In this document: piece after piece, positions 5,179-31,191 of the stretch
Layout: each line of letters starts with the position of its first letter
Position numbering within the stretch: the stretch's first letter is position 1
Origin: Candidatus Thioglobus sp.
GTDB lineage: Bacteria; Pseudomonadota; Gammaproteobacteria; PS1; Pseudothioglobaceae
Direction: 5' to 3'
DNA: 49,541 nt
NCBI GenBank assembly: GCA_029936515.1
Contig: JAPYSK010000004.1
Coordinates: 1 to 49,541, forward strand
Notes under the pieces: generated by a model
What the model was told of the DNA's origin: nothing
The model's input: only the letters and a program-made list of their open reading frames with translations
Databases searched by the model: none
Position numbers and translations under genes: made by a program

Positions 5179-6558
5179 TTAACACTCAATAAAGCTTACA
5201 GCTAAACCACCAAGTGAGGTCTCTTTGTATTTGTGTGACATATCTATGCCTGTTCTTTTCATTGCGGCAATACATTGATCTAGAGAAATTAAGTGTTCAC
5301 CACTCTCTCTTAAGGAAAGTGAGCTTGCTGTGTACGCTTTGACAGCACCGAAGCCATTTCTCTCAATGCAAGGCACTTGTACGAGTCCTTTGACAGGATC
5401 GCAAGTCATTCCTATATGGTGCTCTAAAGCCATTTCTGCAGCATTTTCGATTTGGGCACTAGTACCTCCTCTTATGGCGCAAAGACCTGCAGCAGCCATA
5501 GAAGACGCTGAACCAACCTCGCCCTGACAGCCAACCTCAGCTCCTGATATCGAGCTGTTAAGTTTAATCAGTCCACCTATTGCGGATGCTGATAAAAGGA
5601 ATTGATGGATTTGTTCTGGAGTCGCTGACTTATGTTTATAGTAATAGTATAAGGTTGCTGGCACTACCCCTGATGCACCATTAGTTGGAGCAGTTACTAC
5701 CATATGTCCTGCAGCATTTTCTTCATTAACTGCCATTGCATAAGCACAAAGCCAATCATTAGTACTTGTATTTTCTAGGTCATTTTGTAGGCTTTCATGT
5801 AACTTCTTTGCCCGCCTTTTTGTATTTAATCCACCAGGCAGGATGCCTTCTGTAGCGAGACCGTTTTCAACACAGCTTTTCATTGCACTCCATATCTCAT
5901 CTAGTTTATTGATAAGTATTTCTTCAGGAATATTTTCTAGCTCATTTGCAAGCTTCATTTCCCAGATTGTTTTATTATTCTTTTTAGACATTTCTAGCAT
6001 TTGTTCAGAGTTGTTGAAAGGGTATGGATACGGCGCACTTGATTCTGCAGCAATTGGAGCTTCAATATTATCTATTTCAGCAAGAGTTGATATAAAGCCA
6101 CCACCGATAGAGAAATAGGTATGAGAAATGAGCATCTTATCTGATTTGTCTAGAAGTTCAAAAACCAAACCGTTAGGATTTTGTTTCATTGAATTTCTGG
6201 TGTCAAAAATGATATCGTCTTCTGAAAAGAACGCTGCCTTTTGAGTGTTATTGATATCTATACTTTTTGAGTTCCAGGTGCGCTCAATCACCTCATCCAT
6301 ATTTTCTTTGATGATAGTATGTGGCAGGTATCCATTTAGACCAAGAGTTACTGCTCTATCCGTTGCATGGCCTACACCAGTGTATGCTAGAGAGTCCTTT
6401 AAAGTGCATCTAATATGATAAGTATCAATGCTAGAATTTGATTCTACAAAATTCCTGACATGTTGCATGAAATCATTGGCAGCAACCATTGGTCCCATGG
6501 TGTGTGAGCTTGAGGGGCCAACACCAACTTTAAATAAGTCTAAAACGCTGATAAACAT
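5179..6558 (-). CDS. sdaA: L-serine ammonia-lyase, iron-sulfur type
   Basis: The 459-residue protein matches the single-chain, Fe-S dependent L-serine dehydratases that convert serine to pyruvate and ammonia. The N-terminal beta domain starts with SVLDLFKVGVGPSSSHTMGP, typical of the family. The alpha domain carries the three cysteines that hold the 4Fe-4S cluster, about C344 (EVGCQGEVGS), C386 (MTCDP) and C397 (VPCIER). The length is as expected for E. coli SdaA-type enzymes. In this context it would drain serine, made from glycine and methylene-THF, into central metabolism. The 3' end abuts the convergent DUF3726-like gene with one base between stops. The start has an inverted repeat about 31 bases upstream. 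Confidence 0.95.
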   Translation of the reverse strand: MFISVLDLFKVGVGPSSSHTMGPMVAANDFMQHVRNFVESNSSIDTYHIRCTLKDSLAYTGVGHATDRAVTLGLNGYLPHTIIKENMDEVIERTWNSKSIDINNTQKAAFFSEDDIIFDTRNSMKQNPNGLVFELLDKSDKMLISHTYFSIGGGFISTLAEIDNIEAPIAAESSAPYPYPFNNSEQMLEMSKKNNKTIWEMKLANELENIPEEILINKLDEIWSAMKSCVENGLATEGILPGGLNTKRRAKKLHESLQNDLENTSTNDWLCAYAMAVNEENAAGHMVVTAPTNGASGVVPATLYYYYKHKSATPEQIHQFLLSASAIGGLIKLNSSISGAEVGCQGEVGSASSMAAAGLCAIRGGTSAQIENAAEMALEHHIGMTCDPVKGLVQVPCIERNGFGAVKAYTASSLSLRESGEHLISLDQCIAAMKRTGIDMSHKYKETSLGGLAVSFIEC

Positions 6559-6623: not shown

Positions 6624-7709
6624 TCACCATATGATACATTGTTTTACAGTCTCTTTATTGAAAGTAAAACCGGTTCCAGGTCTTTCTGGAATATCAATAT
6701 GACCATTGATAACTTCAATTTGTTCATTAAACAGTCTGGAAAACCATGGCATATGTTCAACGGAAATACAATTTTCTACTGAGCCTGCAACGCAAAGACT
6801 TTGTTCTGTAAAGATGTGTGTTGAAATTGGAACTTCGTATTCTTTTGCAATATTAGCAACCTCTCTCATTAAGGAGATGCCACCAATTCTTTGAAGGTCT
6901 GGCATGACAATATCACAAGCTTTAGCTTCAAGCATCTCAATAACACCATGCTTGGAATACTCATTTTCACAAGAAGCAATTGGGGTGTTAATTTCATGTT
7001 TTACCTTGGCATGACCCAAGCGATCAGAAAATGCAACTGGCTCCTCTAGCCAAAATAAATCATATTCTTCTAGTTCCTTTCCTAATCGAATGGCGTCATC
7101 AGTTTTAAGGCCTTGATTAACATCTGCCATCAATTCAATTTCAGGACCAATCGCTTTTCTAAGTTGTTTTACACGTTCAACATCGCTTAATAAATTACCA
7201 CTTCCAATTCGAACTTTCATAGCCAAGAAGCCTTGATCAAGAAATTCTTGAGCTTCATTTAGTATTGAATCAATAGATTGGGAAAGCCATAATCCACCAC
7301 TCGCATAGGTTTTTATCTTTGACCGGTGACTACCAAAAAGGCGATGCAAAGGTAAATGAGACGCCTTGCCATTGATATCCCATAATGCGGTATCAATTGT
7401 TGATAGTGCAGAGATAGCATAGTTACTTTTTCCACTCTGATCAATAACGCTCCAAATATCTTGCAAAATATCGTCAATAAATTGAGGATCTTTGCCAATT
7501 AAAATTGATGATAAGCCTACTAAAGTTTCCTTGTAAACTTTTATTTCATAGGAGTTCAAACTAAATAAATAGCTCTGCCCCTCTATCCCTTCGTCAGTTG
7601 CAATGGTTAGCAGAACACATCCAACTGATGACATTTCATGGATAGCGGTTGTTATAGTGTTTTCAAAGGGTAGATCTATAATTCGAGTAGCTATTTTGGT
7701 AATTTTCAT
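6624..7709 (-). CDS. Mandelate racemase/muconate lactonizing enzyme family protein
   Basis: This 361-residue enolase-superfamily enzyme shows the MR-subgroup active site. It has a KxR motif (K165/R167 in MKVRIG), metal ligands D196 (MADVNQG), E222 (LEEPV) and E248 (SCENEY), and the D271/H298 dyad (MPDLQ and STHIF). Such enzymes abstract the alpha-proton of a carboxylate and act as acid-sugar dehydratases or racemases; the substrate is not predictable here. The LysR gene lies 5 bases upstream on the same strand, so the two are probably cotranscribed. The divergent aldolase, dehydrogenase and reductase genes make a hydroxy-acid or sugar-acid substrate plausible. Confidence 0.9.
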   Translation of the reverse strand: MKITKIATRIIDLPFENTITTAIHEMSSVGCVLLTIATDEGIEGQSYLFSLNSYEIKVYKETLVGLSSILIGKDPQFIDDILQDIWSVIDQSGKSNYAISALSTIDTALWDINGKASHLPLHRLFGSHRSKIKTYASGGLWLSQSIDSILNEAQEFLDQGFLAMKVRIGSGNLLSDVERVKQLRKAIGPEIELMADVNQGLKTDDAIRLGKELEEYDLFWLEEPVAFSDRLGHAKVKHEINTPIASCENEYSKHGVIEMLEAKACDIVMPDLQRIGGISLMREVANIAKEYEVPISTHIFTEQSLCVAGSVENCISVEHMPWFSRLFNEQIEVINGHIDIPERPGTGFTFNKETVKQCIIW

Positions 7710-7714: not shown

Positions 7715-8566
7715 TTAATTAACTATATTGATTGACTTCAGAGCTTGGACAGCTGATTGCTGTAAATTCTTGTTTTCGGTGCTTATGGGATATCCTAAAT
7801 AGGTTGGACGGTTAAAGACTGGTGCATTTTCAACCAAAAACAAGCTTTTATTTTGCAGGTATGGCTTGATTGAGCTTTCTAAAAAATAGCCAGACCCACC
7901 ATGAGTAAGAATTTGATTGAGTCCGAATGAGCCAAGACCAACAGACATTTTCGGGATAAATGTTTTGGGAAAAGCGAGATTGTGCTGGGCGCGGAATTCG
8001 TCTCCCCAATCAACAAAAATATAACCAGGTGTTCTACCAACTTGTAGTTCTCTGGGCTCTGTAGAAACCAAATAAAGTGACTCGTTGTTAAATGCCTCAA
8101 TCTGAATATTTGGATGGTTAGTGGGCGCGTACAAAATCGCCATATCGAGTTGTCCATCTCTAAGTTGAGTCATCAATGGATCGGAATAATCTGCGATAAC
8201 CCGAGTAGCTATAGTGGGGTTGCTTTTTTGCATAAAAGTTAGCCATTGGGTGGCAATATAATCCCAATGATTAAGCTGTATGCCCAAGCTGAAAACACCA
8301 TCCAAATCCTCAGGCAGGGCAATTTCTTGTCGTGCTCTCTCCCAAGCCTGAACTACAGTTAAGGCGTGTGGATGAAAAAGCCTCCCGGCGGCACTCAATT
8401 TAGAGCCATTACGTTTGCGAATAATTAAGGTTTGATTTAGCCGTTCTTCCAGGGCTTTTATCCGCGCGCTAACCGTTGATTGAGTAACATGAAGTCGTTC
8501 AGCAGTAAGCTGAAAACTACTAGACGAATGGAGCTCTAAGAAGGTACGCATGTGTTCAATATTCAT
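7715..8566 (-). CDS. LysR-family transcriptional regulator
   Basis: The 283-residue protein has the N-terminal winged helix-turn-helix of LysR regulators (LTAERLHVTQSTVSARIKAL at about 20-40), followed by a periplasmic-binding-protein-like effector domain with typical motifs (QLRDGQLDMAILY). It is transcribed divergently from the aldolase gene across about 148 bases that contain a perfect palindrome. This is the usual arrangement for a LysR protein controlling both itself and the divergent catabolic genes. The inducer is unknown but is likely a substrate or intermediate of the neighbouring enzymes. Confidence 0.92.
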   Translation of the reverse strand: MNIEHMRTFLELHSSSSFQLTAERLHVTQSTVSARIKALEERLNQTLIIRKRNGSKLSAAGRLFHPHALTVVQAWERARQEIALPEDLDGVFSLGIQLNHWDYIATQWLTFMQKSNPTIATRVIADYSDPLMTQLRDGQLDMAILYAPTNHPNIQIEAFNNESLYLVSTEPRELQVGRTPGYIFVDWGDEFRAQHNLAFPKTFIPKMSVGLGSFGLNQILTHGGSGYFLESSIKPYLQNKSLFLVENAPVFNRPTYLGYPISTENKNLQQSAVQALKSINIVN

Positions 8567-8638: not shown

Positions 8639-8714
8639 CGATATATAGAAACAATTTTTATCAACTAATATTTCTATCTGTTAATGTATATTTACAATTA
8701 TTTTGGAAGATAAA

Positions 8715-9452
8715 ATGACAATGCGAACATTAAACCTAGAGCAGCAGCAAGAAAAAGTGAAAATTGACTTGGCAGCAATGTTTAGATTAACTGCAATGCA
8801 TGGATGGGATGATACAATTTGGAATCATATTACTGCCAGAGTTCCTGGCTCGGACCATCATTTTTATATGCATCGTTTTGGACTATCTTATGAAGAGGTT
8901 TGTGCGTCCAACTTAATTAAGGTTGATGAAGAGGGCAATGTTCTTGAAGGTCCAAAAGACGTTAATACTGCTGGATTCATTATTCATAGTGCAATCCACT
9001 TGAATCATCCAAACAATAAATTTGTATTCCACGCACATCCACCGAGTGCCATTGCAGCAACTGCATTTAAGGAAATACCTTTTCTTGTTCAAGATTCTTC
9101 AATGCTATATGGGAAGGTTGGTTATCATGATTGGGAGGGATTATCCGTTGACCCTGATGAAAGATTAAGGATAGCTCATAATTTAGGCAATAATTCATGC
9201 TTGGTGATGAGAAATCATGGATTTTTGACTGTTGGAGAGACGGCAGGGCAATGCTTTATGAATATGTATTATTTAATACGAATGTGCGAAGTTGCTCTCT
9301 CAGCAACCGCTTCAAGTATTGAGCTTGACTCAGGACTAAAGCAACTATGGCCAATAGCATCAAAGCAATATGAGGCTTTTAAGCCAGGACTATATGAATG
9401 GCCTGCCTTATTGCGTCGATGCGATAGATTGGACCCCTCCTATAAGAAGTAA
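8715..9452 (+). CDS. Class II aldolase/adducin family protein
   Basis: This protein of about 245 residues belongs to the zinc-dependent class II aldolase (fuculose-phosphate aldolase/AraD/adducin) fold. The metal-binding histidines are seen in FHAHPPS and in RNHGFLTVG. The glutamate used by FucA-type aldolases for proton transfer is not evident at the equivalent place, which reads NTAGFIIHSAIH, as in many uncharacterised members. I prefer the ATG at 8715 because GGAAGA lies 4 bases upstream; a TTG at 8703 is in frame but overlaps this likely ribosome-binding site. It opens the plus-strand cluster, with the oxygenase gene 7 bases downstream. It may cleave or decarboxylate a hydroxylated intermediate. 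Confidence 0.88.
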   Translation: MTMRTLNLEQQQEKVKIDLAAMFRLTAMHGWDDTIWNHITARVPGSDHHFYMHRFGLSYEEVCASNLIKVDEEGNVLEGPKDVNTAGFIIHSAIHLNHPNNKFVFHAHPPSAIAATAFKEIPFLVQDSSMLYGKVGYHDWEGLSVDPDERLRIAHNLGNNSCLVMRNHGFLTVGETAGQCFMNMYYLIRMCEVALSATASSIELDSGLKQLWPIASKQYEAFKPGLYEWPALLRRCDRLDPSYKK

Positions 9453-9459: not shown

Positions 9460-10344
9460 ATGAAAAAAATTATTTCTCCATCGACTTTTAGTTCTTTTGA
9501 AATTCGATTAGACGAGTTTATCGATTTAGAAGAATTCCCTATTCATGATTTGACGAATCCAAGAAGAGAGTTGCTAGTTAATGATTGCCGTAAAGATCTA
9601 GAAAAATGGGGATGTGCCCACATTCCTAATTTCATTACCAATTCAGCAATAATTAAAATGAAAGAAGAGGCCTTTAGGCTTATTAATAGTTCTCGCAGAG
9701 CCCATAAGTTTGTGAATCCTTACCTTACGGAGGATGACTCTTCATTGCCCGAAGACCATCCCAAGCGTTTTTTTGAAGAAAGGACTTCATCTTTTATAAA
9801 TTCTGACCTTTTGGATAGAGATTCAGTACTTAGAAAGATATATGACTCTGATGTCATGGTTCATTTTGTATCAGAGTGTCTAAATGTTGGGCCAATTTAT
9901 CGCTGGGCTGAGCCACTAGGTAGAAATCCATATAGTGTAATGCATAATGGTGACTACTTCCCATGGCATTTTGATGGTAACGACTTTACAGTAAGCATAT
10001 TAGTCAATGAGTCAAATGATGGTGGTGTTTTTGAATATGCTCCGGATATTCGCACCCCAAAAAATGAAAATTTTGAAGATGTTAAGAAGGTTTTACAGGG
10101 GGGTAGAGACAAGGTTAGGATTTTGAGTTTAAAAACTGGAGATTTACAAATATTTAAAGGGCGTTATTCTCTTCATAGGGTAACAGTTGCCAGGGGCGAT
10201 GAGCCAAGGATTATTGCTGTTCCAACCTATGTGACAAACCCATACCTGGTGAATAGGCCACACCATGCCGAAGCTTTTTATGGCCGTTCAATGCCAATTC
10301 ACCATGAGCGTAACTTGGAGCGTCTCGATAATCTAACTGACTGA
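9460..10344 (+). CDS. Fe(II)/2-oxoglutarate-dependent oxygenase, ArpA/BesD-like
   Basis: The 294-residue protein has the 2-His-1-carboxylate facial triad of 2OG oxygenases: H170 and D172 in PWHFDGND and a distal H239 in SLHRVTVARG. R250 (GDEPRI) is the likely 2-oxoglutarate anchor. The surrounding GGVFEYAPDIR and GDLQIFKGRYSLHRV resemble the ArpA/BesD group, some members of which hydroxylate or halogenate free amino acids. Because the aspartate of HxD is present, hydroxylation is expected rather than halogenation. Placement between an aldolase and a beta-hydroxyacid dehydrogenase, with 7- and 9-base spacers, suggests it hydroxylates an amino acid or related small molecule for breakdown. The substrate is unknown. 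Confidence 0.82.
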   Translation: MKKIISPSTFSSFEIRLDEFIDLEEFPIHDLTNPRRELLVNDCRKDLEKWGCAHIPNFITNSAIIKMKEEAFRLINSSRRAHKFVNPYLTEDDSSLPEDHPKRFFEERTSSFINSDLLDRDSVLRKIYDSDVMVHFVSECLNVGPIYRWAEPLGRNPYSVMHNGDYFPWHFDGNDFTVSILVNESNDGGVFEYAPDIRTPKNENFEDVKKVLQGGRDKVRILSLKTGDLQIFKGRYSLHRVTVARGDEPRIIAVPTYVTNPYLVNRPHHAEAFYGRSMPIHHERNLERLDNLTD

Positions 10345-10353: not shown

Positions 10354-11247
10354 ATGAATATAGGTTTTATTGGTTTAGGATATATGGGTTCAGGAATGGC
10401 AATGAATTTATTGCAATATTGTCAAAATTCTAAACATGAGTTATTAGTTCTGGATATAAATGAAACAGCCCTAAATAATATTCTCAGCAAGGGTGCGATT
10501 CATGGAGAAAGTGTTTCTAATTTGTGCGCGCAATGCGATGTATTATTCACTTCTCTTCCAAGTTCAAAGGAAATAAACCTTCTAGCATTTGGTGATGAAG
10601 GCATTTTAAAGAACCTAAAAATGGGCGCCACTTGGTTTGAAACGAGTACCAATGAATTGGAAGAGTGGGAGAAGGTTAAAGAAAGAGCACCAAAGCATTT
10701 GATGCTTGTTGATGCCCCAGTCAGTGGGGGCGCAGAAGGCGCTAGCGCTGGCACATTGTCTATTTTCTTGGGAATTGATGAAGAGGTACTCGTTAAGTTC
10801 AAACCTCTATTAGAGGTTATTGCTTCAAGGGTTATGCTTATGGGATCTTCAGGAGCCGGCTATGTAACTAAATTGGCACAACTTCACTTAAACTATATAG
10901 CAGCACAAGGGATTGGTGAAGCATTAATGCTCGGAGCAAAGGCAAATCTCGATTTAAATACATTTCATTCAGTATTAATGAATAGTTGCTCTAAGAGCTA
11001 TGTAGTAGAAAACTACATCCCCAAAGTACTCGATGGAAGTTATGACAAGTCTTTTACACTGGGCCTTGCTGAAAAAGATGTAAGGTTAATTGTTAGACTA
11101 GGTAGTCATTTAAAAGTTACTATGCCTTTAATGGAGAAAGTTTATAAGACTTATCAGGAAGCCACTAAACGTTATGGCAGTAAAGTACCACATTTAAGTG
11201 TGGTTAGATTAATTGAAGATAAGCACAACCAATATCTTAGAAAATAA
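10354..11247 (+). CDS. NAD(P)-dependent beta-hydroxyacid dehydrogenase
   Basis: This 297-residue protein is of the 3-hydroxyisobutyrate/tartronate semialdehyde reductase family. It has the N-terminal Rossmann motif GFIGLGYMGSGMA, the substrate-binding DAPVSGGAEGA, and the catalytic lysine region KLAQLHLNY. A good Shine-Dalgarno (GAGGAT) precedes the ATG. Members interconvert a beta-hydroxyacid and its semialdehyde; tartronate semialdehyde/glycerate and hydroxyisobutyrate are the common substrates. Nine bases separate it from the oxygenase gene, so it probably works in the same pathway. Confidence 0.9.
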   Translation: MNIGFIGLGYMGSGMAMNLLQYCQNSKHELLVLDINETALNNILSKGAIHGESVSNLCAQCDVLFTSLPSSKEINLLAFGDEGILKNLKMGATWFETSTNELEEWEKVKERAPKHLMLVDAPVSGGAEGASAGTLSIFLGIDEEVLVKFKPLLEVIASRVMLMGSSGAGYVTKLAQLHLNYIAAQGIGEALMLGAKANLDLNTFHSVLMNSCSKSYVVENYIPKVLDGSYDKSFTLGLAEKDVRLIVRLGSHLKVTMPLMEKVYKTYQEATKRYGSKVPHLSVVRLIEDKHNQYLRK

Positions 11248-11321: not shown

Positions 11322-12590
11322 ATGAAACAGTCTGCTAATGACAGAATGAATGCAATTTCAGAGCAGGGACTATGTGCAGGTTGTGGTATTTGCCAATCTA
11401 TTGCAGGGGCCGATAAGATTAAATTTGTAAAATCGCTTAATGGTTATGAACGGCCAGTAATAATTGGTGAGCTGGATGATTTTACTGTAGATAGAATTTT
11501 CGATATATGCCCAGGCACCCGAATCGAAGGATTACCGGAAAATAAGTTAAGTCCTTCAACAAAGATTGACAAGGTTTGGGGTCCATGGCATCGGATTGCA
11601 AGGGCTTGGGCTGGAGACGAGAAGACGAGATTTGAGGGGTCAACGGGTGGTGTATTAACAGCGCTTGCTCAATTTATGTTGAACGATAAACGGGTGGACT
11701 TTATTTTGCATGTCAAAGCTTCAGTCAAAGACCCAACTTTCGGCGAAAGTTATCTGAGTTTTACCGAAGCTGACGTGTTGGAGACTGGTGGGTCACGTTA
11801 TGGCCCCTCTGCACCGCTGATTAACATAGATGAGATATTGGCACGTGGTCAGACTTTTGCTTTTATTGGCAAGCCTTGTGATATTGCCGCTCTGCGTAAC
11901 TTAGCTCAATATGATGTGAGAGTGAATGAATTAGTGAAATACTGGTTGACTCCTGTATGTGGTGGTTTCATGGCACCATATTCAATGGATTCCTTTCTTT
12001 CTCGTGCTGGAGTTGCGCGTAAGAGTCTTACGGCACTCCGCTATCGTGGGCAAGGTTGCCCCGGACCCACGCGAGTTGAAACGGCTGAAGAGGTAAAGGA
12101 GTTTCACTATCTTGATTTTTGGGGAGACGATGAAAGTGGATGGCATTTGCCTTTTCGATGTAAGATTTGTCCAGACGGAATTGGTGAAGCTGCTGATATT
12201 TCAGCCTCTGATACATGGATTGGTGGATCTCCAACGCGCGAAGAAAGTAAAGATGACCTTGGAACCAATGCAGTAATTGTTCGAACTGCTGCAGGATTAG
12301 AATTGTTTGAAGCGGCTGCAAAAGCAGGTGCAATTACCATCGAATACGATATCACTCCGGATGATATGAGTATCTACCAGCCTCACCAGGTGCGTAAGAA
12401 ATACGCAGCGCATGATCGCCACCAAGGATTGGGTGATCAGGGCCGAATTGTCCCAAAAACGGATCGCCTGAGACTTATAGAGCTTGCAGATGAATTGCCA
12501 GAATCTACCCGAAAATTGCAACGAGCTGGTACACGAGCAAGAGTGCGTTCTGGCAAAGCAACCGAACCAAAACCTGAAGAATTTGAGTGA
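11322..12590 (+). CDS. FrhB/FdhB-like flavin and iron-sulfur oxidoreductase (F420 hydrogenase beta family)
   Basis: The 422-residue protein has an N-terminal cysteine cluster (C18, C21, C24 in LCAGCGICQ, then CPG), a central FrhB-type region (STGGVLTALAQF, GKPCDIAALRN) and the typical FRCKICPDGIGEAADIS motif. The family includes F420-reducing subunits, but also flavin/Fe-S reductases that do not use F420, such as the plant hydroxymethyl-chlorophyll reductase and BciB. No F420 synthesis gene is in view, so ferredoxin-linked reduction is more likely. The last 40 residues are charged and basic-acidic repeats without clear homology. Sampled lines reach 50-60% G+C (one near 37%), above neighbouring genes. 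Its electron partner and substrate are unknown. Confidence 0.85.
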   Translation: MKQSANDRMNAISEQGLCAGCGICQSIAGADKIKFVKSLNGYERPVIIGELDDFTVDRIFDICPGTRIEGLPENKLSPSTKIDKVWGPWHRIARAWAGDEKTRFEGSTGGVLTALAQFMLNDKRVDFILHVKASVKDPTFGESYLSFTEADVLETGGSRYGPSAPLINIDEILARGQTFAFIGKPCDIAALRNLAQYDVRVNELVKYWLTPVCGGFMAPYSMDSFLSRAGVARKSLTALRYRGQGCPGPTRVETAEEVKEFHYLDFWGDDESGWHLPFRCKICPDGIGEAADISASDTWIGGSPTREESKDDLGTNAVIVRTAAGLELFEAAAKAGAITIEYDITPDDMSIYQPHQVRKKYAAHDRHQGLGDQGRIVPKTDRLRLIELADELPESTRKLQRAGTRARVRSGKATEPKPEEFE

Positions 12591-12630: not shown

Positions 12631-13827
12631 GTGAGCAACTTAATTCCAATACCTAAAATATCCTCTAAGGCTTTGCAAGAAATGTTTGATTATAGATTGG
12701 CACGTTTGCGTCAATCCATGGGTGAACAAAATGTAAGTTTGTCTATTTTGACAAATCCTGTAAGTTTGAGGTACGCAATTGATTTTGATGAGTATCAAGT
12801 CTTTCAATCTAATACTCCAACATGTTATTTATTTGTTCCTTTGGAGGGCCCTTTGGTTATGCATGGTGCGACTCAAAAAGATTTTCCAAATGTTTCAGAA
12901 TACCGACGACCTAATTTTATTTCACCATTTGATGGTGGTGTTGAACTTGTTAACAAGTCTATGCTTTTTAGCAAAGAGGTGGATAGTTTTATGAGTCAGC
13001 ATTGTTACAATAAAAAAATTGCTGTTGAAAGATTTTCACCACTTGTTGTTATGTCATTAAAAAATCTTGGATGTCAAATAAGTGATGCAGAATGTTTATT
13101 ACAAAAAGCCAGGATGATTAAGCATCAAACTGAAATTGAGTGCATTAAGCATTCTATATCAGTTGCAGAGTATGGTATGAAATTAATGCATGAAAATACT
13201 ATTTCGGGGATAACAGAGAGAGAGTTATGGTCAATTCTTCACCAGGTTAATATTTCTAATAATGGATCTTGGATGGAGGGTCATATGCTTTCTTCAGGAA
13301 CAAGAACCAATCCTTGGTTGCAAGAGGCAAGTGAACGAATTATTGAAAAAGGCGATATGGTTGCTTGTGATACTGACATGATTGGCCCAAGAGGCTATAT
13401 GGCAGATATTTCACGATCTTGGATATGTGGAGGTGGGCGAGGTAACAGAGAACAGAGGGATGCTTATCAGCATGCATATGATGAGGTTTGCTTTAATATA
13501 GATGCAATTAAGATTGGAAAGTCTTTTTCAGAATTATCCAGTGAGGCATTTGAACGTAATAAAATTTATAAAAGAAACCACTACCCTTGCGTTTACCATG
13601 GTGCTGGTCTGACAGATGAATATCCTAAGATATATTACCAAGAAGATTGGGCTAGGGATGGGTATGACGGTGTAATTGAACAAAATATGGTTTTATGCGT
13701 CGAAAGTTACTCCGGTGCTGAAGGGGGCAAGGTTGGTGTCAAACTTGAGGAAATGGTATATATAACTGAAACAGGAATAGAGTTATTAAGTTATTATCCG
13801 TTTGAAGATAATTTATTAGTAAATTAA
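12631..13827 (+). CDS. dddP: DddP-like M24-family enzyme, candidate DMSP lyase
   Basis: This is an M24/creatinase-fold protein with a complete metal site: D247 and D249 (CDTDMIG), D259 (ADISRSW), H323 (YHGAGL), E358 (CVES) and E373 (KLEE). The intervals 12, 64, 35 and 15 equal those I recall for DddP (D295, D307, H371, E406, E421). The residues matching the DddP catalytic D377 and Y366 are also present (D329, Y318). The aromatic at the recalled W95 position seems to be phenylalanine. DddP splits DMSP into DMS and acrylate. The start is uncertain: GTG at 12631 has GGA 7 bases upstream. TTG 12583 and ATG 12682 are alternatives; an ATG at 12484 would overlap the FrhB-like gene by 107 bases, although it would give nearly the DddP length. 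Other M24 activities remain possible. Confidence 0.7.
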   Translation: MSNLIPIPKISSKALQEMFDYRLARLRQSMGEQNVSLSILTNPVSLRYAIDFDEYQVFQSNTPTCYLFVPLEGPLVMHGATQKDFPNVSEYRRPNFISPFDGGVELVNKSMLFSKEVDSFMSQHCYNKKIAVERFSPLVVMSLKNLGCQISDAECLLQKARMIKHQTEIECIKHSISVAEYGMKLMHENTISGITERELWSILHQVNISNNGSWMEGHMLSSGTRTNPWLQEASERIIEKGDMVACDTDMIGPRGYMADISRSWICGGGRGNREQRDAYQHAYDEVCFNIDAIKIGKSFSELSSEAFERNKIYKRNHYPCVYHGAGLTDEYPKIYYQEDWARDGYDGVIEQNMVLCVESYSGAEGGKVGVKLEEMVYITETGIELLSYYPFEDNLLVN

Positions 13828-13873: not shown

Positions 13874-14812
13874 ATGGCATTATTATTAGCATCTACTGAC
13901 TTTTGGGAGGATATGGAGGTATGGTCGGCAAGCCTTAAGTCAGCCTTACCAGAGCTAGATATTAGAGTATATCCCGATGATGGCAATGTTAACGAAGTTG
14001 AGTTTGCAGTCGTTTGGAAACATCCTCACGGAATTTTAAAAAAATATCCAAATTTAAAAGCGATTCTGTCTCTAGGTGCGGGAGTTGACCATATTATAAG
14101 CGATCCTGATTTGCCTGAAGGATTGCCTATAATTCGTCTGGTCGATAAAAAATTAACTCATGAAATGTGTCTTCATTCGCTGCATTGGGTTTTGCATTTT
14201 CATAGTGATCAGTACCTTTATAGAGTTCAACAATCTAACCGCGAGTGGATCCAGCAAAGCTCTGTTCAGACAGAGGATCGAACAATTGGTATTATGGGTT
14301 TAGGCAATATTGGCAGAAGTATTGGTGAATTATTAGTCACTCAAGGCTTTAATGTAATAGGCTGGGGTGCCAAGAATAAATCTTCATTAAAGGATATCAA
14401 ATATTATTATGGTGAAGAGCAGTTTGGTGATTTTCTAAGTAAGACAGACATATTAATCAATGTCCTTCCATTAACTTCAAATACTACTAATATCCTTACA
14501 AAAAATAAGCTTGAGTTTCTCCCTAAAGGTTCATTTATTATTAATATTGGTAGAGGTGGGATAATTAATGAGGATGATTTATTATCATTCTTAGATGATG
14601 GACATATTACTGCAGCTGCTTTGGATGTTTTTGCAGAAGAGCCGTTGCCAGAAAATAATTCACTTTGGAGCCACCCTTCTGTTTACATTACGCCTCATAT
14701 TGCGGGACAAAGTAATCCAAATTCTGCATCAAAAACTATTGCTGAAAATATTCATCGTATTCAGAAAGGAGAATTGCCATATCCTATATATAACAAGACC
14801 AATGGCTATTAA
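13874..14812 (+). CDS. D-2-hydroxyacid dehydrogenase, GhrA-like (glyoxylate/hydroxypyruvate reductase)
   Basis: The 312-residue protein has the NAD(P)-binding motif GIMGLGNIGRSIG. The catalytic residues of the D-isomer 2-hydroxyacid dehydrogenases are the arginine in NIGRGGIIN, the glutamate in FAEEPLP and the histidine in TPHIAGQS. The N-terminal half (LKAILSLGAGVDHI, LTHEMCLHSLHWVL) fits the GhrA branch, which reduces glyoxylate and hydroxypyruvate. A GGAG ribosome-binding site precedes the ATG. Glyoxylate reduction would fit glycine-linked metabolism nearby, but another 2-keto acid is possible. It is AT-rich, unlike the two genes that follow. Confidence 0.88.
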   Translation: MALLLASTDFWEDMEVWSASLKSALPELDIRVYPDDGNVNEVEFAVVWKHPHGILKKYPNLKAILSLGAGVDHIISDPDLPEGLPIIRLVDKKLTHEMCLHSLHWVLHFHSDQYLYRVQQSNREWIQQSSVQTEDRTIGIMGLGNIGRSIGELLVTQGFNVIGWGAKNKSSLKDIKYYYGEEQFGDFLSKTDILINVLPLTSNTTNILTKNKLEFLPKGSFIINIGRGGIINEDDLLSFLDDGHITAAALDVFAEEPLPENNSLWSHPSVYITPHIAGQSNPNSASKTIAENIHRIQKGELPYPIYNKTNGY

Positions 14813-14851: not shown

Positions 14852-15616
14852 ATGAACGACACCAAAAACTTTGAACTCTTGAGTAAAAGCATCGAACTTG
14901 ACCAGGGACCGGGACAATACAGAATTGGTCTGGTCGCTCTTTCTAATGATTATGTTACCGAACGCGACTTTATGAATATGCGCCCCAGTGATGATGTCGT
15001 TGTTTATACAAGTAGGATACGTAATACACCGGAATGCACAGCCGAATCTCTTCGTCAGATGGAACCTCTCATTACTGAAGCGACCTCTCTTATTGTGCCT
15101 GAGGGGCGTTTGGACGTAGTGGCATATAGTTGTACTTCGGGAACGGCCGTGATGGGTTTTGATAAAATACGCTCACTCATACAAGCCGCCCGCCCTGGTA
15201 TTGCGGTTGTGACGCCGATTACATCATCTTTGGTAGCTCTTGATCTTTTCGAAGCACAACGAATTGCAGTGTTGACCCCCTATGTAGATGATGTTAACGC
15301 CGGTATTGCGAGGTATTTGGAAGATCATGGTAAATCGATTTCTGCATTTAGCAGTTTTAAAATAGTGGAGAATGAAACCATGGCGTTGCTGACCCCACAA
15401 AGTATCTTTAATGCGGCTCTTGAGGCTGACAGGAATGACGCCGATGCTTTGTTTATTTCATGCACAGCTATCCGAGCCGTTGAGGTGATTGATCAAATAG
15501 AACAGAAACTTGGTAAGCCTGTTATTACTGCTGTTCAAGCGATGTTTTGGCAGTCATTACGCCTTGCAGGTTTTAATGGAAAAATTTCCGGTTACGGGCA
15601 GTTAATGTGTTTGTAG
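14852..15616 (+). CDS. eutA: EutA-like protein, arylmalonate decarboxylase/maleate isomerase family
   Basis: The 254-residue protein belongs to the Asp/Glu racemase superfamily. It has two cysteines at the expected catalytic positions, C94 (AYSCTSGTAVMG) and C204 (FISCTAIRAVEV), as in maleate isomerase and in the ectoine utilisation protein EutA. The EutA assignment is favoured because an EutD-like gene follows after 63 bases. The biochemical role of EutA in ectoine breakdown is not well settled. GGAG at 14840-14843 precedes the ATG by 8 bases. The gene is GC-richer than the gene upstream (a sampled line is about 52% against about 30%), suggesting it arrived with eutD as a unit. Confidence 0.75.
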   Translation: MNDTKNFELLSKSIELDQGPGQYRIGLVALSNDYVTERDFMNMRPSDDVVVYTSRIRNTPECTAESLRQMEPLITEATSLIVPEGRLDVVAYSCTSGTAVMGFDKIRSLIQAARPGIAVVTPITSSLVALDLFEAQRIAVLTPYVDDVNAGIARYLEDHGKSISAFSSFKIVENETMALLTPQSIFNAALEADRNDADALFISCTAIRAVEVIDQIEQKLGKPVITAVQAMFWQSLRLAGFNGKISGYGQLMCL

Positions 15617-15620
15617 ATCT

Positions 15621-15635
15621 AATACCTATGGTATT
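15621..15635. repeat. Short hairpin between the eutA-like and eutD-like genes
   Basis: AATACC and GGTATT form a 6-base stem with a 3-base loop, followed by a T-rich stretch. It begins 5 bases after the eutA-like stop. It could weakly attenuate or stabilise the message, but it has too little G+C to call a terminator with confidence. Confidence 0.3.
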
Positions 15636-15679
15636 TATTCTACATAGACCTACAACACGAAATAAATGGAGATAATGTC

Positions 15680-16861
15680 ATGAATTATAATAAACCGTTT
15701 CAAAAGTCCGAATACGATCAACGTGTCAGAAACGTAAAACTACGCATGGAGAAAGCCGGTTTTGAACTTCTTATCTGTCAAGACCCAGCCAATATGAATT
15801 GGCTTACAGGTTTCGATGGCTGGTCATTTTATACTCCTCAGGCTGTTCTCCTACATTTGAATGAATCAACGCCGATATGGTTCGGGCGTGCTCAGGATGC
15901 GAAGTCGGCCGCGATTACTACCGATATAAGTTCTGAAAATATCATTGGTTTTTCTGAACCATTGGTTCACCATCAAAGTAAACACCCATTTGATGAGCTA
16001 TGTGATCTTATAATCACCCGTGGTTGGGGCTCTGAGCGGATTGGTGTTGAACTAGATGCGCATTACTATACAGCTCGGGCACATCAACACCTTATTAATG
16101 GCCTGCCTAATGCACATATTTCGGATAATGTTGAACTTGTAAATTGGGCACGACTTGTGAAATCTGATGCGGAACTTGTATACATGCGTGAAGCTGGTCG
16201 AAATGTCACTAGTACTATGAATCAGGCGATTTCCAATCTCAAACCTGGCACTAAGCAATACGAAATCATTGCTGATGTATATCACTCACAAATTACCGGA
16301 TTAGATGGTAAGTTTGGTGACTATACCAGTTTATGCCCATTAATTCAGGTTGGAGAGGGGACTAGTACTCCTCACTTGACATGGACCGATGAACCAATTC
16401 CTGATAACGGGTTAATTGTAATGGAGCTAGGCGCTGCACGAAGACACTACCATACTCCTTTGACACGAACAGCCCACCTTGGCAAACCACCTGAAGAGAT
16501 CATTCGACTGGCTGAGGTTATCGTCGAGGGAGGTGATACTGCTCTTGCAGCAGCAAGGCCTGGGGTTACATGCGGTGAGGTTGAAGAAATCTGGCAGAAT
16601 GTTCTTAAACTTAATGGTTATCAAAAGGAGAGCCGTGTAGGTTATTCTATAGGTCTAAATTACCCCCCAGATTGGGGTGAAAGGACAGCAAGTTTACGAA
16701 GTGGTGACAATACCGTTTTAGAGGCGGGGATGTGTTTTCATTTCCAGTCTGGTATGTGGCTTAAAGAATTTGGTGCAGCAATCTCGGAGTCTTTTGTAGT
16801 AACAGAGAACGGTGGAGAGCGATTTTGCAGTGTCAATCGTGAGCTCATCATCATAGATTAA
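15680..16861 (+). CDS. eutD: EutD/DoeA-like ectoine hydrolase (M24 fold)
   Basis: The 393-residue protein is an M24/creatinase-fold hydrolase with features I associate with ectoine hydrolase EutD/DoeA: NWLTGFDGWSFYTPQ near residue 45 and GYSIGLNYPPDWGE near residue 320. The M24 metal ligands are largely lost. The Asp-x-Asp position reads ELGAARRHYHTP (about 248), and the usual GHGIG histidine is replaced in GYSIG. EutD opens the ectoine ring to N-acetyl-diaminobutyrate. The partner deacetylase EutE and the EutB/EutC enzymes are not in the window, so either they lie elsewhere or the substrate differs. It is GC-richer than the flanking AT-rich genes. Confidence 0.75.
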   Translation: MNYNKPFQKSEYDQRVRNVKLRMEKAGFELLICQDPANMNWLTGFDGWSFYTPQAVLLHLNESTPIWFGRAQDAKSAAITTDISSENIIGFSEPLVHHQSKHPFDELCDLIITRGWGSERIGVELDAHYYTARAHQHLINGLPNAHISDNVELVNWARLVKSDAELVYMREAGRNVTSTMNQAISNLKPGTKQYEIIADVYHSQITGLDGKFGDYTSLCPLIQVGEGTSTPHLTWTDEPIPDNGLIVMELGAARRHYHTPLTRTAHLGKPPEEIIRLAEVIVEGGDTALAAARPGVTCGEVEEIWQNVLKLNGYQKESRVGYSIGLNYPPDWGERTASLRSGDNTVLEAGMCFHFQSGMWLKEFGAAISESFVVTENGGERFCSVNRELIIID

Positions 16862-16876
16862 TTATGGAGATTATGA

Positions 16877-17905
16877 ATGAATGCTTTATTTGCCTCAGAT
16901 AATGTGACTAGTGCATGCCCTGAAGTTATGGATGCAGTTATTGCTGCTAATTCTGGTATTGCCGAATCATATGGCGATGATCAATGGTCATCCAGATTGC
17001 AAACGAAATTATCTGAAATTTTTGAAACTGATGTAATAGTTTTTCCTGCAGTAACTGGAACGGCAGCAAATGCTCTGGCTCTTTCTGTATTGACTCCTGT
17101 GTTTGGGAAAATATATTGTCATGAGTTATCGCACATTAATACAGACGAGTGTGGTGCACCTGAGTTTTTTACTGGTGGCGCGAAGTTAATTCCTATGCGA
17201 AGTAGTAACGGAAGAATCGACGCTAGTGATCTATCTCAAACTATACGAGGAGCTGGAAATGTGCATGTTCCACAGCCTGCTTCTGTAAGTATTACTCAGT
17301 CATGTGAAACTGGAACTGTCTATCAGATTGATGAAATTATGGCTATTTCAAAAACAGCTCATAATCACGGATTGAGTGTTCATATGGATGGTGCTCGATT
17401 TGCTAATGCGATTGCTTCTCTTGGTGTTAGTCCAGCAGAAATGACGTGGAAATCAGGTGTTGATGTGCTTACCTTAGGCGGTACAAAAAATGGTTGCCTT
17501 GCAGCAGAAGTGATTGTGTTTTTTAAGCCTGAGCTAGTAGGAGATTTTCCATTCCTGCACAAAAGGTCTGGTCAACTTCTTTCTAAAATGCGCTTTATTT
17601 CATCTCAGCTTGAGGCCTATTTATCTGATGATGTATGGCTTCGTAACGCTGGTCATGCCAACGCAATGGCAAAAATTCTAAGTGAAGGTTTAGATGCTTT
17701 TTCTAATATTGAATTGGCATATCCAACACAATCAAATGAAGTTTTTGTTCATCTTTCTCGTGAGCTTATAGATTATCTAAATAATGCAGGTTACGATATT
17801 AATGAAGAAGAGCTCGACGGCCAAGCTGTTAGATTTGTCACCGCTTGGAATTCAGAGTTGAAAGACGTTGATCGATTGCTTACAGTTATAAAACAGTATA
17901 CATAA
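16877..17905 (+). CDS. ltaE: Low-specificity threonine aldolase
   Basis: The 342-residue PLP enzyme of fold type I matches the beta-eliminating lyase/threonine aldolase family. The PLP lysine is K204 in TLGGTKNG, and the aspartate that pairs with the pyridine nitrogen is in VHMDGARFANA. It cleaves L-threonine or allo-threonine to glycine and acetaldehyde. The ATG at 16877 is preceded by GGAGA. It is the last gene before the glycine cleavage genes, from which 184 bases separate it. This suggests it supplies glycine to that system. Action on other beta-hydroxy amino acids, such as a product of the upstream oxygenase, is also possible. Confidence 0.9.
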   Translation: MNALFASDNVTSACPEVMDAVIAANSGIAESYGDDQWSSRLQTKLSEIFETDVIVFPAVTGTAANALALSVLTPVFGKIYCHELSHINTDECGAPEFFTGGAKLIPMRSSNGRIDASDLSQTIRGAGNVHVPQPASVSITQSCETGTVYQIDEIMAISKTAHNHGLSVHMDGARFANAIASLGVSPAEMTWKSGVDVLTLGGTKNGCLAAEVIVFFKPELVGDFPFLHKRSGQLLSKMRFISSQLEAYLSDDVWLRNAGHANAMAKILSEGLDAFSNIELAYPTQSNEVFVHLSRELIDYLNNAGYDINEEELDGQAVRFVTAWNSELKDVDRLLTVIKQYT

Positions 17906-23008: not shown

Positions 23009-24214
23009 CTAACTAATTATATTATGTTCTGGTCCAAATGGAAATTTGGTAATGTCATATGCACTATCTTCAGTTAATACCATAATATCATGTTCACGAT
23101 AGCCTCCTGAACCTGGCTGTCCTTCTGGAATCATAATCATTGGCTCCATAGAAACTACCATATTTTTTTGAAGAACTGTATCAATATCCTCTCTTAACTC
23201 TACACCAGCTTCACGGCCGTAGTAGTGAGACAGTACACCAAATGAGTGACCATAGCCAAAGGTCCTGCTTTCAAGCAAACCATATTCTTCAAAAATTTTA
23301 TTAAGCTCAAGAGCAATGTCTTTGCATGCAACTCCAGGTTTAATAAGTTTCATTCCTTCTTCATGAACCTTTACATTAATTTCCCATAATCTAAGAGATT
23401 CATCATCAACATGGTCATAAAATAACGTTCTTTCTAGTGCTACATAATAGCCGGCAATCATTGAGAAACAGTTAAGACTTAGAATATCACCCTTTTGAAC
23501 TTGCCTTGAAGTAACAGGGTTATGAGCACCATCAGTATTGATGCCAGACTGAAACCAGGTCCAAGTATCCATGAGTTCAGTGTGCGGATAGCGCTTAGCA
23601 ATTTCTCTGACCATGGCCTGTGTTGAGTGAAGAGCTATTTCGTGCTCTGGCGCACCTTCTTTAATAGCCTCAACTAAAGCTGCACCACCTATATCACAAA
23701 CGTTTGCTCCTTGAATAATGTGTGCAATTTCTTCATCTGATTTAACAGAGCGCATCTTCATGCAGTCAGCTGAAATATCAAAAAACTCAGCTTTATCAAA
23801 GGCAGTTTGAAGCTTGTCTAAACGTTCTTTGGTTATATGGTCATGCTCGATGCCAATTTTACCACTGTTATTTACTAGCTGCTGTAATGCATAAAAGAAG
23901 CTATCTTTTTGCCAGTCTGTGTAGACTAAGTTTTCACCAAAAGTTCGTCTCCAAGGCTGGCCACCATCAATATTTGCGGTTACAGTTGTTGCTTTCTCTT
24001 GAGTGACAACAAGCGCATAAGGACGTCCAAACGAACAATAGAGGAAGTCACTGTAATAATTAATACTATGGATAGATGTAAAAATTACACTATCAATATT
24101 ATTTTGTGCCATATGACTTCTAAGGCGTTCTTGACGATTTTGGAATTCTTTATCACTAAATGTATGTACTATATTGTCACCATTTGGTATAAGTATTGTT
24201 CTTGGCATATTCAT
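23009..24214 (-). CDS. Creatinase (creatine amidinohydrolase)
   Basis: The 401-residue protein matches the Pseudomonas creatinases nearly end to end in style and length (402-403 residues). It has the N-terminal NYYSDFLYCSFGRPYALVVT, TWTWFQSGINTDGAHNPVT with the catalytic histidine (H231 here, H232 in P. putida), FGYGHSFGVLSHYYGREAG and the C-terminal KFPFGPEHNII. It hydrolyses creatine to sarcosine and urea. The fold is that of M24 peptidases, but without their metals. AAGGAG lies 5 bases before the ATG on the minus strand. It is the last gene of a minus-strand run and converges with the gcv operon. The sarcosine product would feed the soxBDAG genes in this window. Confidence 0.95.
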   Translation of the reverse strand: MNMPRTILIPNGDNIVHTFSDKEFQNRQERLRSHMAQNNIDSVIFTSIHSINYYSDFLYCSFGRPYALVVTQEKATTVTANIDGGQPWRRTFGENLVYTDWQKDSFFYALQQLVNNSGKIGIEHDHITKERLDKLQTAFDKAEFFDISADCMKMRSVKSDEEIAHIIQGANVCDIGGAALVEAIKEGAPEHEIALHSTQAMVREIAKRYPHTELMDTWTWFQSGINTDGAHNPVTSRQVQKGDILSLNCFSMIAGYYVALERTLFYDHVDDESLRLWEINVKVHEEGMKLIKPGVACKDIALELNKIFEEYGLLESRTFGYGHSFGVLSHYYGREAGVELREDIDTVLQKNMVVSMEPMIMIPEGQPGSGGYREHDIMVLTEDSAYDITKFPFGPEHNIIS

Positions 24215-24344
24215 AGCGACTCCTTTGTATAAGTTAATTTGTGCGGATGTTAGTCAATTTCGTTAAGTATAGCAAGTTTTTTTTAAACATATGCTTTTAG
24301 CTTCTTGCAAGGGAAGTTAAGTCCTAGGTATAAAAATTATAATT

Positions 24345-25211
24345 TTATTGTGGTTTATTTAAAACACTTTCACGAATGAATGTATAAAGCCCAGAGGCTA
24401 CAATAATTGTAGCTCCAATCAATGTGAAGCTATCTGGCCTCTCTCCGAGAATTATGATTGCTAGGAGCATTGCAAATACTATTCTTGAATATCGGAATGG
24501 CGATATAACTGACATTTCACCAATACGTGAAGAGATAACAAGTGAATAATAAGCAATTACTCCAAAGGTTGATGCTCCAATAAAATACATAATTTGATTT
24601 GATGTTGGAGCTATCATTGCTGAGTTAAATGGAATTATCAAAATACCTGAGATCCCAAAAGCTATGAAGGCATATAAAGCAATCGTTACTGAAGGAAGTT
24701 TCACCTTCATTGCGCGAGTTGCTAAGTCTCTTGCTGCTAGAAATACAGCTCCAAGCAATGCGAATATTGATGCTGGCATGAATCCTCCAAAGCCAGGACG
24801 CAAAATCAATAATACACCAATGAAGCCAACAAATACTGCCGACCAGCGCCTCCACCCTACATTTTCTCTAAAAAATACTGCAGCTCCAATGGTTACTAAT
24901 AATGGCGTTATTTGTAGAATTGCTGAGGCGGATGAAAGTGGCGTTAAGGCAATTGCTGTAACAAAAAATACCGCCCCTAAAAGATCAAAAATTGTACGAC
25001 TTATTACATGCCTGTTCAATAGATCTTTATGAATAATTGGTGCTCGCTGAAGAAGTGCAATAATTAGCAATATAACGCTTCCAGTAAAGCCAAGAATTAT
25101 TATTACTTCTGATATTGGAAAATAAGCCGAGAGCATTTTGATAAATAAATCTTCAAATGCAAAGCCAGCCATGGCTAGAATCATGAATAAGATACCTCTT
25201 AAGTTTTCCAT
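24345..25211 (-). CDS. EamA/DMT-family transporter
   Basis: The 288-residue integral membrane protein has about ten hydrophobic helices in two similar halves, the layout of the drug/metabolite transporter (EamA) superfamily. It lies between creatinase and a DUF1989 gene on the same strand, so uptake or export of creatine, a related guanidino compound or a product is plausible but unproven. Substrate cannot be inferred from this family's sequence. The spacing to creatinase is 130 bases, so creatinase may also have its own promoter. Confidence 0.88.
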   Translation of the reverse strand: MENLRGILFMILAMAGFAFEDLFIKMLSAYFPISEVIIILGFTGSVILLIIALLQRAPIIHKDLLNRHVISRTIFDLLGAVFFVTAIALTPLSSASAILQITPLLVTIGAAVFFRENVGWRRWSAVFVGFIGVLLILRPGFGGFMPASIFALLGAVFLAARDLATRAMKVKLPSVTIALYAFIAFGISGILIIPFNSAMIAPTSNQIMYFIGASTFGVIAYYSLVISSRIGEMSVISPFRYSRIVFAMLLAIIILGERPDSFTLIGATIIVASGLYTFIRESVLNKPQ

Positions 25212-25243
25212 TCTTTTCTAGCTGTATGAATTAAAGTTGAATT

Positions 25244-26107: not shown

Positions 26108-26203
26108 AATTTTTTAGTCATTTTTTTATTATAAAGAAGTTGCTGCACACAGTTTGTTCGTAAATACACTAGAGTGTTCAAAGTAATCATACAACATCAT
26201 AAA

Positions 26204-27355: not shown

Positions 27356-27399
27356 AATTTTCTACAAATCAAATAATATTAGTGCTAATAGTTATTTAG

Positions 27400-31032: not shown

Positions 31033-31134
31033 AATTTATATTGTATATATAAATGATATTTAAATATAAAATTCATAAAAAAAGACAATCTAAGTTAAAA
31101 ATATCTATTCTATATTAATGAGTAAAAAAAATGA

Positions 31135-31163
31135 TTGACAGTTATTCAAATTAGGAACAGAAT
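31135..31163 (+). promoter_or_regulatory. Candidate sigma-70 promoter for the EamA transporter gene
   Basis: A perfect TTGACA (-35) is followed after 17 bases by CAGAAT (-10, four of six matches). The predicted start of transcription would be near 31170, about 40 bases before the ATG. The perfect dyad at 31178-31191 would lie just inside the transcript, where a repressor or RNA hairpin could act. Confidence 0.5.
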
Positions 31164-31177
31164 GCGCAAATAATTGG

Positions 31178-31191
31178 CATCAATCTTGATG
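31178..31191. repeat. CATCAA-TC-TTGATG dyad in the transporter leader
   Basis: A perfect 6-base dyad with a two-base centre lies between the candidate promoter and the GGTGGAG ribosome-binding site of the EamA gene. Its position suits an operator. No regulator gene is adjacent. Confidence 0.35.

Follow-up and report, generated by a model that had tools for sequence, protein, structure and literature searches.

A DddP-like M24 metalloenzyme outside the RlDddP clade and its recurring gene neighbours in Candidatus Thioglobus

The dimethylsulfoniopropionate (DMSP) lyase DddP is the closest described relative of the protein considered here, a DddP-like M24 metalloenzyme encoded at 12631-13827 (+ strand) of a 49,541-base stretch of Candidatus Thioglobus DNA (hereafter the window). 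DddP is reported to bind its metals through six ligands (D295, D297, D307, H371, E406 and E421), with Tyr366 and Asp377 as the proposed catalytic residues, and the metal-binding and proposed catalytic residues are described as invariant among the DddP lyases of Todd et al. 2009 (PMC4108388). According to a review, the sulfur of DMSP is bound by a conserved Trp together with a Tyr (PMC5395565). The fungal enzyme FgDddP is reported to confer dimethyl sulfide production at 32% identity to RdDddP (PMC4108388). O. doudoroffii DddP2 and the scallop-symbiont HWgs001 enzyme, which is 55% identical to DddP2, are described as active and distinct from most DddP (PMC10989825).

The window is an entire contig (C80) of a 1.44 Mb genome, which comprises 83 contigs and is ~95% complete. 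A first-pass annotation, made from the letters of this DNA, had placed DMSP cleavage in an osmolyte region of a non-roseobacter marine bacterium. The host and the osmolyte region are both borne out: the genome groups in one genus with records named Candidatus Thioglobus and SUP05 cluster. We take this genus to be the Pseudothioglobus lineage; the record names show only Thioglobus and SUP05. DMSP cleavage itself is unsupported, as the protein misses the cut-off of the DddP equivalog profile NF043017 by more than half, a scan of 29 of the 43 window open reading frames (ORFs) recognised no acrylate genes, and the protein is placed outside the clade that contains RlDddP. We give a probability of roughly 0.5 to the reading that the enzyme and its orthologues (clade A) perform a step in a catabolic cassette for a small carboxylate resembling an osmolyte, the likeliest being an onium compound of betaine or sulfonium type other than DMSP. 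A substrate of this kind is proposed because the region around columns 79-99 is remodelled, a hydroxylase gene recurs beside the M24 gene, and transporter genes are found among its neighbours.

Active site and predicted fold

The M24 gene is an open frame that begins with GTG and encodes 398 residues, which are numbered here from this start. A mechanically called ORF is longer, starting from a TTG at 12484 and overlapping the preceding gene; the GTG at 12631 was taken as the start because all six orthologues begin within three residues of it. In a phmmer comparison with solved structures, RlDddP is the best relative (E = 1e-60, 31% identity). The four top distinct solved sequences are DddP chains (E = 1e-60 to 3e-58), and a prolidase follows at 7e-13. 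The resemblance to RlDddP evidently reflects homology rather than chance. The AlphaFold2 model has a pLDDT of 94.8, and Foldseek superposes this predicted model on RlDddP (4rzy) with a template modelling (TM) score of 0.92 and a root-mean-square deviation of 2.0, compared with a TM score of ~0.7 for prolidases, creatinases and DoeA/EutD.

Alignment to RlDddP assigns the metal ligands to D247, D249 and D259 (13369..13407, +), H323, and E358 and E373 (13702..13749, +). D249 aligns with the sixth, extra DddP-type ligand, and the remaining five are spaced by 12, 64, 35 and 15 residues. Y318 and D329, at positions -5 and +6 relative to H323 (13582..13617, +), fall together with this ligand in the columns of RlDddP Y366, D377 and H371, and the alignment with 4s00/4s01 shows the same. 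The column of RlDddP W95 is occupied by F58 (12802..12804, +); the number 95 for the sulfur-binding Trp is taken from the first-pass annotation and the alignment. The spacing of the five ligands, the Asp and Tyr flanking the His and the Phe at the W95 position had all been noted in the first-pass annotation, and each was recovered. The protein also carries the marks of the DddP-like superfamily, namely the extra Asp ligand, the Tyr of column 366 and a position in the tree beside DddP, away from the remaining M24 proteins. On these grounds, it is predicted to be a dinuclear-metal M24-fold enzyme of an undescribed DddP-like branch, clade A, and not a DddP orthologue.

The ligand and catalytic set had been taken to be DddP-like. 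The set is indeed present; it is less specific than assumed and is shared across the superfamily, including H13, a group of DddP-like M24 proteins (e.g. L114, L118 and L124) that have Gly at the catalytic-Asp column and often directly adjoin HalD-like hydroxylases. The 12/64/35/15 intervals occur in 31/33 DddP rows, 17/18 H13 rows, 9/11 clade A rows and 11/28 other DddP-like rows, and in none of the 17 rows of group B, a second DddP-like family, in which the intervals are 12/63/35/15. The Asp297 column is kept in 107/107 DddP-like rows and the Tyr366 column in 106/107, and the Asp377 column is Gly in 18/18 H13 rows. For these counts, rows outside the tree received their clade labels by hand, from residue pattern and score. 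The exact ligand intervals were rejected as a diagnostic of DMSP lyase, being present also in H13, which is without the catalytic Asp. The intervals, Asp297 and Tyr366 thus mark a broad DddP-like M24 superfamily rather than DMSP lyase.

Trp95 is the informative residue for telling DddP-like groups apart. This column holds Trp in 33/33 DddP, 17/17 group B and 25/28 other DddP-like rows, and Phe in 11/11 clade A rows; in H13 it is Tyr (12), Phe (5) or Asn (1). At 15 columns, clade A and DddP each have their own fixed residue, and six of these columns are 79, 83, 90, 92, 95 and 99 (10 or 11 of the 11 clade A rows).

Position among the DddP-like proteins

The M24 protein scores 270.1 bits against NF043017, which has a cut-off of 600, and the five other clade A proteins scanned score 253-295 bits. 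Against TIGR02993 (ectoine hydrolase), it reaches 24 bits with a cut-off of 613. DddP-like and M24 proteins were collected from 369 genomes of the class (20 matching at 1e-20), 398 genomes of the phylum (42 at 1e-25, of which 17 have a protein over the DddP cut-off) and 83 genomes of the family (53 with a match of any kind at 0.001, in many cases to a distant M24 protein). This yielded 116 distinct proteins, one of which was partial and excluded from the alignment. The first tree contained 68 rows including RlDddP; six far or odd rows were excluded, as were rows more than 82% identical to kept ones, RdDddP among them. For the second tree, which contained 73 rows, L002 was removed and six plasmid proteins were added. 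Sequences of O. doudoroffii DddP2, HWgs001 and fungal DddP are not contained in either tree.

A phylogeny of M24 proteins had been named beforehand as a check, with a position outside the DddP clade of a rooted tree as the refuting outcome, and in the rooted tree the protein is indeed placed outside the RlDddP-containing clade. Clade A (7 rows, support 100/100), together with L051 and L054, is separate from the 24 DddP rows, which form a clade of their own (100/100) with RlDddP among them. Uniting the seven clade A rows with the 24 DddP rows was rejected by the approximately unbiased (AU) test (p 0.0011). In the second tree, a 13-row clade A+ (100/97) takes in plasmid proteins of Pseudomonas sp. 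MPC6, Mesorhizobium and Alisedimentitalea, and its union with DddP was rejected again (p 0.0015). Clade A+ plus L139 is joined with H13 at 78/93, which is not decisive; H13 forms a single supported clade in the first tree and two groups on an open backbone in the second. The M24 protein thus falls in a separate clade outside the DddP clade of RlDddP. It is unlikely that H13 is the home of the fungal DddP enzymes, because the catalytic residues are said to be invariant in DddP lyases while H13 has Gly at Asp377.

A further genome of the genus (G028) encodes a protein over the DddP cut-off (639 bits) that is placed in the DddP clade, in addition to clade A and group B proteins. This observation bears on the explanation that clade A is itself a divergent but genuine lyase of DMSP or of dimethylsulfoxonium propionate (DMSOP), functionally like DddP2 and the fungal enzymes, in which Phe would take over the role of Trp95 in binding the sulfonium group. 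The complete retention of the six ligands and of the Tyr366 and Asp377 columns is consistent with such an enzyme, as are the activity reported for DddP2, HWgs001 and FgDddP in spite of their divergence, the reported cleavage of DMSOP by known DMSP lyases (PMC10686828) and the presence of relatives at 42-43% identity on plasmids of marine Rhodobacterales. Against it stand the score of 270/600 bits, the placement outside the RlDddP clade, the Phe of all 11 clade A rows at the position of the sulfur-binding Trp described in PMC5395565, the lack of recognised acrylate genes in the scanned part of the window, and the fact that the relatives at 42-45% identity, which are nearer than RlDddP, include Pseudomonas and Mesorhizobium plasmid proteins. 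The possession of a separate protein over the DddP cut-off by G028 points in the same direction. Neither the profile score nor the phylogeny, the AU test or the residues favour a true DddP; we consider a divergent DMSP or DMSOP lyase quite unlikely. DMSP as a substrate is possible and not favoured.

The rest of the genome was consulted for other signs of DMSP use. No AcuI-type reductase over the cut-off was found in the ~95%-complete genome (best 57 of 297 bits), PrpE and AcuH not having been searched. A DmdA-like fragment (L167, G000:C70:11259-11945 of 11,947) runs into a contig end and scores 297 bits over 229/369 positions; this truncation may be why it stays below the 410-bit cut-off. Of the routes by which the host might use DMSP, demethylation has the better support, DMSP lyase families other than DddP not having been searched.

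Clade A is narrowly distributed. The closest named orthologues, at 67-76% identity, come from metagenome-assembled genomes (MAGs) of Candidatus Thioglobus (3), the SUP05 cluster (1) and uncultured Gammaproteobacteria (2). More distant ones are found in Marinobacterium jannaschii and Marinomonas sp. MED121 (58%), a gammaproteobacterial MAG (53%) and an Oceanospirillaceae MAG (52%). Six of the ten named records coincide with genus genomes already sampled and were not counted as new. In the sample of 369 class genomes, the genome of the window gives the only match to clade A proper, and the next is L051 (432 bits), kin outside the clade. Relatives of up to 45% identity occur in 179/72,556 plasmid records, mostly of Rhizobium and Sinorhizobium.

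Within the genus, a full-length clade A gene is present in 7/29 genomes, and there are fragments of 85 residues in G005 and of 27 residues, with a stop, in G032. These fragments indicate that the gene can decay while the aldolase and HalD genes remain, as might be expected if the protein were vestigial or of broad specificity, with a minor role in the cassette and no conservation of its exact chemistry. The active-site residues are, however, invariant over the seven genus genomes at 68-76% identity, and the four outside loci retain 51-58% identity, so this explanation is considered very unlikely.

Group B (L032, L034 and L036-L039) recurs in the genus and keeps Trp95. The two group B proteins scanned score 470 and 476 bits against NF043017, and their annotated neighbours are MttB-like and FAD-oxidoreductase/GcvT-type genes. 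A DddP-like match at 33-44% identity is found in 22/29 genus genomes, not each of them classified. Pseudothioglobus is listed among predicted DMSP degraders (PMC13310141), and group B might underlie this listing.

The surrounding cassette and its recurrence

The M24 gene lies in a cassette with a divergent left part. On the - strand are an L-serine ammonia-lyase (5179..6558; TIGR00720, 545 bits, over the cut-off), which forms the left border here, an enzyme of the mandelate racemase/muconate lactonizing enzyme (MLE) superfamily (6624..7709; profile matches) and a LysR-type regulator divergent from the cassette (7715..8566; profile matches). The + strand follows with a class II aldolase/adducin-family protein (8703..9452; NF005451, 251 bits with a cut-off of 207), which is ~82% identical in Marinomonas, an Oceanospirillaceae MAG and a gammaproteobacterial MAG. 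Next come a HalD-like Fe(II)/2-oxoglutarate oxygenase (9460..10344; PF23169) and a beta-hydroxyacid dehydrogenase resembling HIBADH and tartronate-semialdehyde reductase (10354..11247; below every listed equivalog cut-off). An FrhB/FdhB-like protein, of a family of Fe-S flavoproteins (11322..12590; PF04432/PF04422), ends 40 bp upstream of the M24 gene. A GhrA-like 2-hydroxyacid dehydrogenase (13874..14812; profile matches) lies downstream of the M24 gene and recurs near the cassette. The HxD...H motif of the HalD-like protein is kept. Halogenases lack the Asp of this triad. A halogenase reading was rejected with the triad intact, and the protein is read as a probable hydroxylase because the triad is kept.

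In another genome of the genus (G024, 67% complete; L036, 15843-18323), the serine ammonia-lyase gene stands immediately before GhrA and the cassette is absent. Because of this arrangement, the cassette behaves as an island, and the G024 site gives its borders. The cassette genes occur in varying order in the sister genomes of the Thioglobus group. HalD-like (at least 73% identity) and aldolase (at least 80%) genes are each found in the same 12/29 genus genomes, which include all seven clade A carriers. The FrhB-like gene is present in exactly those 7/29 genomes that have a full-length clade A gene (Fisher 6e-7, uncorrected for kinship). The gap between the FrhB-like and M24 genes, 40 bp in the window, is -1, 12, 164 and 72 bp in three sister genomes and the Pseudomonas plasmid, in the last of which the M24 gene comes first.

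The neighbourhood is also partly maintained outside the genus. The Marinobacterium locus contains HalD-like, M24, FrhB-like and LysR genes, and the Marinomonas locus contains GhrA-like, aldolase, HIBADH-like, LysR, MLE, M24 and two HalD-like genes. L048 and L049 hold GhrA-like, MLE, LysR, aldolase, HalD-like, HIBADH-like and M24 genes, and L048 also serine ammonia-lyase. The plasmid of Pseudomonas sp. MPC6 encodes proteins for LysR (50%), two HalD-like proteins (54% and 51%), M24 (45%), FrhB-like (45%), GhrA-like (48%) and MLE (49%), with a glycine betaine/proline ATP-binding cassette transporter ~6 kb from the M24 gene. Two Mesorhizobium plasmids of clade A+ carry a betaine/proline/choline transporter gene 7-8 kb from the M24 relative, and MttB-like and transporter genes lie 6-8 kb away.

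A HalD-like gene lies at most 4 kb from the clade A gene in 10/11 loci (the window and 9/10 fetched loci). This compares with 0/6 DddP loci that have at least 7 kb of flank on each side (p 6e-4, uncorrected for kinship), the statistic being restricted to long-flank loci so that unequal flank lengths are excluded. A HalD-like gene is directly adjacent to 10/18 H13 members, and at one H13 locus HalD-like, M24 and MMSDH genes follow in order with an OpuAC betaine-binding protein 2.5 kb further. Among the remaining census rows, many of which have 1.5 kb flanks only, a HalD-like neighbour was seen only at L054 and L078. The neighbours of other DddP-like relatives are, in Paraburkholderia, a ring-hydroxylating dioxygenase and a reductase; in Alisedimentitalea, a desaturase and an oxygenase ferredoxin; at L110-L112, a GbcB-like reductase; and in Parasedimentitalea, MttB-like and sarcosine oxidase genes. 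Literature searches on the cassette and on inactive DddP homologues, limited to open-licence literature and to the words searched, found no description of the cassette.

Between GhrA and gcvT on the + strand (14852-17905), the window holds EutA-like (243/318 bits), DoeA-like (at 15680; 419/613 bits) and GntG-like pyridoxal phosphate aldolase (76/230 bits) genes, followed by gcvT-gcvH-gcvP. The three genes are perhaps a variant ectoine-type module; none of them was seen in the fetched stretches of the sister clade A loci. For this reason, the EutA- and DoeA-like genes (14852-16861) were set aside as the main functional context. They bear on the explanation that clade A is a hydrolase of a small amide, amidine or peptide-like metabolite, of creatinase, ectoine hydrolase or dipeptidase type, rather than a lyase. 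Their position 1-2 kb downstream of the M24 gene, the M24 fold, the annotation of plasmid relatives as Xaa-Pro peptidase and an FrhB-like relative near ectoine transporter genes in Rhizobium gallicum argue for a hydrolase. Conversely, D249 supplies the extra ligand of DddP type, Asp329 takes the place of a His in prolidase 1pv9, two histidines of the M24 peptidases are reported to be replaced by Asp and Phe in DddP (PMC5395565), and the predicted model superposes better on DddP than on prolidases and EutD. With the EutA- and DoeA-like genes also unseen in the stretches fetched at the other loci, a hydrolase is judged unlikely.

Other catabolic genes were seen in the window and elsewhere. A second cluster at 23009-32107 encodes two further M24 proteins, DUF1989, a fused 1210-aa hydantoinase A/B protein and two EamA transporters, and G015, G028 and G030 have parts of it downstream of their clade A cassettes too. 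GbcB-like reductase and SoxB/SoxA-type genes at 32327-39236 are consistent with degradation of glycine betaine to sarcosine. The FrhB-like relative of Rhizobium gallicum (L165, plasmid; 47.7% identity) lies in a stretch with ectoine synthase and the EhuC/EhuD ectoine transporter genes.

Proposed function and comparison with known systems

In the favoured reading, in which clade A acts on an onium compound other than DMSP, the LysR regulator would control the cassette. The carboxylate of the substrate would bind one metal of the dinuclear site, and the Asp329/Tyr318 pair would abstract the proton adjacent to the carboxylate, or activate water. Breakage of a C-N or C-S bond might then follow by beta-elimination. 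The metal site and base pair match those proposed for this reaction in DddP (PMC4108388, PMC5395565), which makes a lyase-type step plausible. The HalD-like hydroxylase, HIBADH-like dehydrogenase, class II aldolase and FrhB-like protein may process the substrate or the product of the M24 enzyme, and the fragments would enter GhrA, the glycine cleavage system and serine ammonia-lyase. Judging from the downstream enzymes, the end products may be small hydroxy- or oxo-acids together with glycine or serine. The residues, the predicted fold, the separate clade, the recurring neighbours and the linkage to HalD and, within the genus, to FrhB are observed; the regulation, the class of substrate, the order of the steps and elimination rather than hydrolysis are what we infer. 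A more specific version is offered tentatively: clade A may be a C-N or C-S bond-cleaving metalloenzyme that works in series with a HalD-type 2-oxoglutarate hydroxylase, joined in several lineages by the FrhB-type protein, in an undescribed betaine or sulfonium osmolyte pathway common to SUP05 relatives, Oceanospirillaceae and an Antarctic Pseudomonas plasmid.

Several observations weigh against the favoured reading. The tree backbone is partly unresolved, its root depends on long outgroup branches, and the clade members for both AU tests were chosen after the tree had been seen. At the site in G006, the FrhB-M24 pair stands alone, with HalD and aldolase on another contig. In 3 of the 7 genus genomes, the identity of the FrhB-like protein is as low as 40-41%, so that it is possibly a paralogue there, and outside the genus only 1/4 genomes has such a protein. 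Aldolase and HIBADH-like genes are unmatched near the Marinobacterium and Pseudomonas M24 genes, and the Mesorhizobium and Alisedimentitalea stretches of clade A+ give no HalD-like or FrhB-like match. A betaine transporter was not recognised among the window proteins scanned (29/43 ORFs).

The gene dddP is reported to account for ~65% of ddd genes in Tara Oceans data (PMC10686828). In the lineage studied here, the DddP-like proteins of clade A and group B retain their metal and catalytic residues yet lie outside the RlDddP clade; therefore, counting based on motifs or identity can misassign function. If the cassette degrades another osmolyte, its members are candidate genes for a missing marine pathway and offer a test of how DMSP lyase arose from M24 stock. 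If a new onium pathway is involved, the DddP-like superfamily would be mainly onium-degrading, with DMSP lyase as one branch.

Compared with the ectoine hydrolases DoeA/EutD (6yo9, 6twk), clade A shares the M24 fold, and a DoeA-like gene lies in the same window; the two differ in structure (Foldseek TM ~0.69), sequence (17% identity) and profile score (24/613 bits to TIGR02993). H13 (e.g. L114 and L124) resembles clade A in its often adjoining HalD-like hydroxylase and in the Tyr or Phe at column 95 in 17/18 members. It differs in the Gly at the Asp377 column in 18/18 members, and aldolase and FrhB are unmatched in the H13 stretches examined (L068 and L069 excluded). Group B is likewise a DddP-like M24 family with the same ligands, Tyr and Asp. 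It is 33-39% identical, keeps Trp95 and the N-terminal extension, is nearer to DddP in the tree, and adjoins MttB-like genes (TIGR02369, below the cut-off) and FAD-oxidoreductase/GcvT-type genes where annotated. DddP itself (RlDddP 4rzy/4s00/4s01; RdDddP 4b28) shares with the M24 protein the predicted fold, the six ligands and their spacing, the Tyr366/Asp377 columns and the HGxGL-DE motif. In contrast to DddP, the M24 protein, at 31% identity and 270/600 bits, has Phe for Trp95 and a remodelled 79-99 region, is without ~37 N-terminal residues as judged by the orthologue starts, belongs to a separate clade and is encoded beside HalD-, FrhB- and aldolase-type genes.

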